From a bacterium (GTDB lineage Bacteria; Thermosulfidibacterota; Thermosulfidibacteria; Thermosulfidibacterales; JALWSI01): a stretch of 12,845 nt of DNA. The number at the start of each line of letters is the position of its first letter. The first letter of the stretch is position 1. Below, one piece after another: positions 11,940-12,845 of this stretch. The notes below the pieces were generated by a model. That model saw only the letters and a list, made by a program, of their open reading frames with translations, was not told the origin of the DNA and made no database searches. The position numbers were made by a program, and so were the translations under genes. The DNA lies in the NCBI GenBank assembly GCA_027080315.1, contig JALWSI010000205.1:1-12845 (forward strand). The letters are read 5' to 3'.

Positions 11940-12087
11940 TCAAGGCGAACCACAAAGAGATTTTTTAGCACTTGAAATAAAACCCTTTATCGCATAGCTT
12001 ATGTGAGCAGGAGATAAGGTCTGGTTCTAAGTTGAGGCCGTGTGTCCTAATAGCTTGGATCCATACCCCAACAGAGTGGAGGTGTTT
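11886..12087. other. Divergent intergenic region between the permease and pyrophosphatase genes
   Basis: This 202-base spacer holds the permease ribosome binding site, the right arm of the quasi-palindrome and presumably two divergent promoters. Candidate elements are weak. Toward the permease there is TTGAGG (11943-11938), 18 bases, then TACAGT (11919-11914), overlapping the repeat arm. Toward the pyrophosphatase there is TTGAAA (11972-11977), 17 bases, then TAGCTT (11995-12000). A small stem GGTCT/AGGCC (12018-12022 with 12035-12039) lies in the pyrophosphatase leader. No RNA gene or riboswitch could be supported. Confidence 0.4.
12078..12084 (+). promoter_or_regulatory. Ribosome binding site fixing the pyrophosphatase start
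   Basis: GGAGGTG lies three bases before ATG 12088-12090 (core GGAGG five bases away). A GTG at 12040 is in frame, but the 16 residues it would add are not family-like and would bury this site. The ATG gives a 177-residue protein, close to the E. coli enzyme at 176. Confidence 0.75.
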
Positions 12088-12621
12088 ATGAAAAACCTGT
12101 TTCATATAGATAAGGGATCCCATTTTCCAGAGGCCGTAACCGCAGTGATTGAGGTGACCTGTGGAAGCAGGGCAAAGTACGAGTACGATATTGATAAAGG
12201 AATTCTTAAATTGGACAGGATTTTAAGAACATCCGCCCGATACCCTGGAAACTACGGCTTCATACCCCAGACACTTGGAAACTTCAGAAACCCTGTTGAT
12301 GTCTATGTTCTTTTGAATGAGCCACTATTTCCAGGATGCGTCCTTGAGGTGAGGCCCCTGGGCCTTCTTGAGATGGCCGACGAGATGGGCACCGACAGCA
12401 AGGTTATAGCCCTCCACGTTGCAGATCCCCGCTGCGATGAGATAGAGGATATCTTTCAGGTGCGCTCCTTCGCTCTTGAAGAGATAAAGCACTTCTTTGA
12501 AACCTACAAGCCAGGCACCCAGGTTAAGGGGTGGCAAGGAAAAGAAGAGGCCCACAACTTCCTAAAAAAGGCCCACCTAAGATACTTAGACAGGTTCTCT
12601 TCAGAGCCAGGAGAGGTTTAG
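12088..12621 (+). CDS. ppa: Family I (soluble) inorganic pyrophosphatase with altered active site
   Basis: The family hydrolyses pyrophosphate to two phosphates in the cytoplasm, pulling biosynthetic reactions forward. The 177 residues align without gaps through the core to E. coli Ppa. Retained are E22, K30, E32, R44, Y52, Y56, D71, D98, D103, K105, Y140 and K141 (E. coli E20, K29, E31, R43, Y51, Y55, D70, D97, D102, K104, Y141, K142). The hallmark DGDPVD segment reads FRNPVD (66-71): the metal ligand equivalent to D65 is Phe, and the general-base equivalent of D67 is Asn. The frame is open and the rest is well conserved, so this is not simple decay. It could be a weak enzyme, a pseudoenzyme or one with a shifted mechanism. 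The fold assignment is secure; activity is uncertain. It converges on the small gene downstream, 16 bases away. Confidence 0.85.
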   Translation: MKNLFHIDKGSHFPEAVTAVIEVTCGSRAKYEYDIDKGILKLDRILRTSARYPGNYGFIPQTLGNFRNPVDVYVLLNEPLFPGCVLEVRPLGLLEMADEMGTDSKVIALHVADPRCDEIEDIFQVRSFALEEIKHFFETYKPGTQVKGWQGKEEAHNFLKKAHLRYLDRFSSEPGEV

Positions 12622-12637: not shown

Positions 12638-12845
12638 TTACCAGCTCTTATACCTCTCCATAATCTCCCTCTCCGCTTCCTTGGCTGCGGCAAACTCCTC
12701 CTCGCTTACCTCCACCTCCATGCGCAGAAGCACACACCCCATTGACTTTCCGGTCTGGTCAAATCTGAGTGTTCTGGTGGCTCCCCCCTCCAAGGCGTTG
12801 TCCAGTATCACCTCTAAGCTATGAATGTTATCCATGGGATATATG
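12638..12845 (-). CDS. Small hypothetical protein, possibly 5'-truncated by the window edge
   Basis: I do not recognise this protein. From ATG 12835 it has 65 residues: MDNIHSLEVILDNALEGG, a likely beta-strand region TRTLRFDQTGKSMGCVLLRMEVEV, then an acidic helix SEEEFAAAKEAEREIMERY ending KSW. The codon pattern (AGA/AGG, purine-rich coding strand) matches neighbouring genes, which supports it being real. The frame stays open upstream to the edge of the window and no ribosome binding site is visible before 12835, so the true start may lie outside. It has no signal peptide or membrane segment. It converges with the pyrophosphatase gene, with a 16-base gap and no obvious terminator between. Confidence 0.6.
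   Translation of the reverse strand, partial: IYPMDNIHSLEVILDNALEGGATRTLRFDQTGKSMGCVLLRMEVEVSEEEFAAAKEAEREIMERYKSW

Follow-up and report, generated by a model that had tools for sequence, protein, structure and literature searches.

What remains of a family I pyrophosphatase that lacks two of its catalytic aspartates but keeps its other active-site residues? This question is raised by a gene close to the 3' end of the window, that is, the whole stretch of 12,845 nucleotides analysed here. The features of the gene and its surroundings are:

12088..12621, plus strand: homologue of family I pyrophosphatases belonging to a variant clade, 177 amino acids (Pfam PF00719, AlphaFold2 model, PDB matches)
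12283..12300, plus strand: FRNPVD in the place of D-x-D-P-x-D, with F66 equivalent to E. coli D65, N68 to D67 and D71 to D70
12280..12282, plus strand: N65, invariant within the variant clade and frequent in canonical enzymes too
12078..12082, plus strand: GGAGG, resembling a ribosome-binding site, 5 bases ahead of the ATG at 12088
upstream of the pyrophosphatase gene, minus strand: AI-2E type transporter gene, named from its sequence
12638-12844, downstream, minus strand: gene for an AtuA ferredoxin-like domain, running off the contig end

Translation probably starts at the ATG at 12088 and not at an upstream GTG (position 12040), because the GGAGG precedes this ATG and because every orthologue in an alignment of the variant copies begins with M-x-NLFH. 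The codons from 12283 to 12300 (TTC AGA AAC CCT GTT GAT) encode FRNPVD, and in the protein TLGNFRNPVD takes the place of the TLxxDGDPLD of canonical enzymes. The signature D-x-D-P-x-D is thus absent from the window protein, D65 and D67 being gone and D70 present. Codons and alignment both bear out an earlier note on this DNA, which had described FxNPxD for DxDPxD with Phe66 at the position of D65 and Asn68 at that of D67. It had called the alignment with the E. coli enzyme gap-free; this holds for the Thermus pyrophosphatase (residues 3-148), whereas the E. coli sequence aligns only with a gap of one residue, placed between E20 and K29.

Fourteen active-site positions were compared (E. coli numbering: E20, K29, E31, R43, Y51, Y55, D65, D67, D70, D97, D102, K104, Y141 and K142). 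Canonical relatives read EKERYY-DD-DDDKYK and the window protein EKERYY-FN-DDDKYK. Exactly two of the 14 residues have changed; the other 12, which the earlier note had also counted as remaining, were all read in the protein. The PF00719 match (159.8 bits, cut-off 23.5) spans residues 19-166 and profile positions 1-152 of 153. An AlphaFold2 model built from a 26-row alignment (pLDDT 85, pTM 0.83) has family I pyrophosphatases as its best PDB matches, with Z scores of 23-25 and an rmsd of 1.4-2.1 over 155-169 residues, and the fold is predicted to be intact. The protein resembles E. coli PPA, the Thermus thermophilus enzyme (2prd) and Tt-IPPase of Thermococcus thioreducens in fold (Z around 24), in length, in sequence (about 35-47% identity) and in 12 of the 14 active-site residues, but unlike these three it has neither D65 and D67 nor the DxDPxD signature. 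It shares with the E. coli D65N mutant (PDB 1mjx, Z 23.8) the loss of the same metal ligand and the kept fold. However, 1mjx is a laboratory mutant changed at one residue, and the loss in the window protein and its clade is natural, clade-wide and extends to D67.

The roles of the residues in family I pyrophosphatases are well defined. Metal 1 is held by D65, D70 and D102, D67 orients the nucleophilic water that forms a bridge between metals 1 and 2, and the two phosphates are held by K29, R43, Y55, K104, Y141 and K142. Given these roles in metal 1 and water, loss of D65 and D67 would be expected to hit the activation of water and to spare the binding of phosphate.

The two aspartates hardly vary elsewhere in the family. 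Both D65 and D67 are Asp in 100% of 195 aligned canonical relatives, in which E20, K29, E31, R43, Y55, D70, D102, K104, Y141 and K142 are conserved at about 100% and D97 at 98%. Among distinct relatives from genomes and viral contigs outside the phylum, 211 of 215 keep DxD[PAH]xD and none has the variant pattern. The four exceptions are L199 and L207, in which most of the active site is gone, L216, in which D67 is replaced by Glu, and L282, a viral fragment. At the 14 positions L199 (genome G323) and L207 (G191) read EKH-VYDHNDDHYF and ERRYPFGKNDDQF-, respectively. Like the window clade, these two have lost the DxDPxD motif naturally; unlike it, they are without most of the active-site residues, and they come from genomes outside the phylum. 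Judged by their residues, they appear to represent another type of degenerate family I pyrophosphatase, distinct from the window clade.

A search with the exact motif pattern among the first 88 loci matched the window's own gene only. In the sister group in the tree, the phylum of G361 (95 genomes), the variant was not seen: 24 of 25 further loci carry DxD[PA]xD, and the remaining one, L317, belongs to the sequences that carry an insertion around the motif. Apparent losses of D65 (TYCG...RDPLD) were rejected as an alignment effect caused by such insertions, as those inspected carry GDxDPLD. None of 64 relatives on viral contigs showed the variant pattern, and all plasmid and phage matches were below 60% identity. 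These 64 viral contigs (L219-L282) encode family I pyrophosphatase relatives of their own, nearly always with the canonical motif.

The phylum itself is small and was sampled with nine genomes from three families, one genome per species, the window's own family being represented only by its own genome (G000). Six variant copies were present in five of the nine genomes, two of them in G003. Their motifs are:

window: TLGNFRNPVD
G003, two copies: TLGNARNAVD and TLSNTRNPVD
G001 and G002: TLGNTVNPVD
G005: TLGNTVNPAD

All six conform to [GS]N-[TFA][RV]-N-[PA][VA]-D. N65, N68 and D71 occur in every copy, position 66 holds F, A or T and position 67 holds R or V, so that D65 and D67 are both absent from every copy. 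The other twelve active-site residues are kept across the clade, apart from one Tyr-to-Phe change that is also found in canonical enzymes. The earlier note had proposed that the motif might define a clade, and in the tree the six copies do form a single one (support 100/100) on a long stem of 1.29 changes per column; nearest to it are canonical sequences of G361 and G232 (support 95/82). The simplest history, with one genome sampled per species, is a single ancestral change that predates the split of families f1 and f2 and the duplication in G003, since one fully supported clade stands on a long stem beside canonical sequences. Nei-Gojobori dN/dS ranged from 0.05 to 0.15 for pairs with unsaturated dS, which together with the kept active-site residues upholds the purifying selection suggested earlier. 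In a draft genome of 253 contigs one might suspect a misassembly, a sequencing error or a gene in decay. This explanation is hardly credible and is refuted by the orthologues: the same change occurs in six genes of five genomes, with codons that vary from copy to copy, and dN/dS is well below 1. The variant is real, clade-wide and under selection.

The only canonical soluble pyrophosphatase in the phylum (L083) was found in G007, of family f3. It is nested among sequences of family f13 (from G018, G166 and G305) and is therefore either a transfer or a contamination, the G007 bin being 6% contaminated. A profile search gave no PF00719 match in G004, G006 and G008.

Two further explanations of the variant suppose that it is still an enzyme. 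According to the first, it is a slow or metal-shifted working pyrophosphatase in which N68 positions the water, a metal-bound hydroxide or another carboxylate acts, and the protein tops up a membrane pump. Single Asp changes in family I pyrophosphatases often reduce activity and do not abolish it, and a water can still be held by an Asn. Purifying selection has kept D70, D97, D102 and every substrate-binding residue, and in the genomes with the variant no other soluble pyrophosphatase homologue was found, both of which would suit a slow enzyme. Against this stand the full conservation of D65 and D67 in the 195 relatives and the drift of the D65 position between F, A and T, which shows that metal site 1 is not maintained. 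Asp117 of mouse PPA1 is presumably the equivalent of D67. Its change to Ala, not to Asn, left no detectable activity (D117A; PMC3633968). We therefore consider a slow pyrophosphatase unlikely. The earlier note had also allowed for compensation nearby, for which the motif gives no sign: it holds no new acidic residue, and position 66 drifts freely. This free drift indicates that the metal-1 ligand is no longer constrained, and the fixed Asn at position 68 that this position still has a role.

As other possible pyrophosphatases of the same genome, the earlier note had pointed to a membrane-bound or a family II enzyme; the first was found and the second was not. The genome of the window encodes an intact membrane-bound pyrophosphatase as a separate protein (G000:C180, 867 bits, H_PPase profile 1-644 of 645), and no match to PF02833, the DHHA2 domain of family II (DHH/DHHA2) pyrophosphatases, was obtained in G000. 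Membrane pyrophosphatases with the motifs GNTTAA and DNAGG occur in eight of the nine phylum genomes, including G000 and G004, and the ninth genome is 71% complete. The GNTTAA motif marks the K+-dependent type. A pyrophosphate-dependent phosphofructokinase was considered as a motive for sparing pyrophosphate and ruled out, because proteins of the PFK family (PF00365) are absent from all nine genomes. PPDK_N matches were present in eight of the nine.

An intact soluble copy is missing from G004, which is 96% complete. Inside a 26-kb contig (L158:8321-8088) the last 43 residues of the pyrophosphatase stand beside the last 37 residues of a HEAT-repeat protein, and this remnant is a variant pyrophosphatase and HEAT pair that decayed together. 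G004 has only this remnant together with the membrane enzyme and so does not rely on the soluble protein as an essential pyrophosphatase; in this genome at least, the soluble variant is dispensable for that task.

The gene neighbourhood differs between families. In the window the pyrophosphatase gene stands alone, with both flanking genes on the opposite strand. In G002, G003 (contig C14) and G005 the order is a dynamin-like GTPase, a protein of prenyltransferase fold (alpha-alpha toroid), the variant pyrophosphatase and a HEAT-repeat protein, and the same order is spread across two contigs in G001. The second copy in G003 is followed by a HEAT gene as well, and the two genes adjoin for all five f2 copies. 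The HEAT protein was detected only in genomes with an f2 variant pyrophosphatase. No HEAT homologue was detected in the genome of the window, which has its dynamin and toroid genes at another place (C138), and the HEAT partner therefore cannot belong to a mechanism common to all copies. For f2 the cluster offers a clue to function, not a fixed partnership. Its coordinates are L096:4780-9265, L097:1526-5489 and L098:5979-9847; some clusters include a small protein without a Pfam match, and an ABC-class ATPase adjoins on the other strand.

This neighbourhood bears on the second enzymatic explanation, in which the nucleophile site has been remodelled for another phosphoanhydride, such as a prenyl or nucleoside diphosphate. 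A prenyltransferase-fold protein and a dynamin-like GTPase adjoin in the f2 genomes, the stem branch is long, and several residues are invariant and specific to the clade, F13, E95, A97 and K147 among them. However, the toroid gene is not beside the pyrophosphatase gene in the genome of the window, the charged canonical pocket is unaltered except for the two Asp, and the motif offers no new catalytic acid or base, which makes a new substrate quite improbable. The conserved HEAT neighbour in f2 could also fit a protein with a structural or moonlighting role, its pocket being no more than a relic, as pseudoenzymes often keep their folds for partner binding. This is very improbable, as all six copies retain 11 pocket residues found in nearly every canonical enzyme, in an alignment that is invariant in less than half of its columns.

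The protein may be of any of the kinds put forward earlier (pyrophosphate sensor, regulator, weakened enzyme, enzyme for another substrate); in our view it most probably binds its ligand without hydrolysing it efficiently. We hold, with moderate confidence, that the variant is a lineage-specific pseudo-pyrophosphatase, non-hydrolytic or very slow, which binds pyrophosphate or a diphosphate group in cells where the membrane pump deals with the bulk of the pyrophosphate. The metal ligand D65 and the water activator D67 (Asn in every copy now) would have been lost in an ancestor of some of the phylum, with the phosphate-binding residues K29, R43, Y55, K104, Y141 and K142 and the carboxylates E20, E31, D70, D97 and D102 being kept. 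The protein most likely binds Mg-pyrophosphate or a diphosphate group but hydrolyses it too slowly to be of use, if at all, and the bulk of the pyrophosphate would be hydrolysed by the membrane-bound, ion-pumping enzyme. The bound state might be passed on, we infer, with the variant acting as a sensor, a buffer or a binding partner; in the relatives of the window's organism, the partner could be the HEAT-repeat protein encoded alongside.

A literature search yielded no natural pseudo-pyrophosphatase of family I, which is a weak negative since older enzymology was poorly covered, and we know of no dedicated pyrophosphate sensor established in bacteria. A tentative and bolder proposal is that the clade as a whole uses a natural pyrophosphate sensor, derived from a family I pyrophosphatase through loss of just the two residues by which the attacking water is positioned and activated. 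Hydrolysis of pyrophosphate would be left to the membrane ion pump, and in the relatives the sensor would report to a HEAT-repeat partner within the cluster of dynamin and prenyltransferase-fold genes. A clade in which only the catalytic pair is altered is a ready natural test of the role of the two aspartates, and of the way in which cells cope that have an ion-pumping pyrophosphatase but no efficient soluble enzyme.
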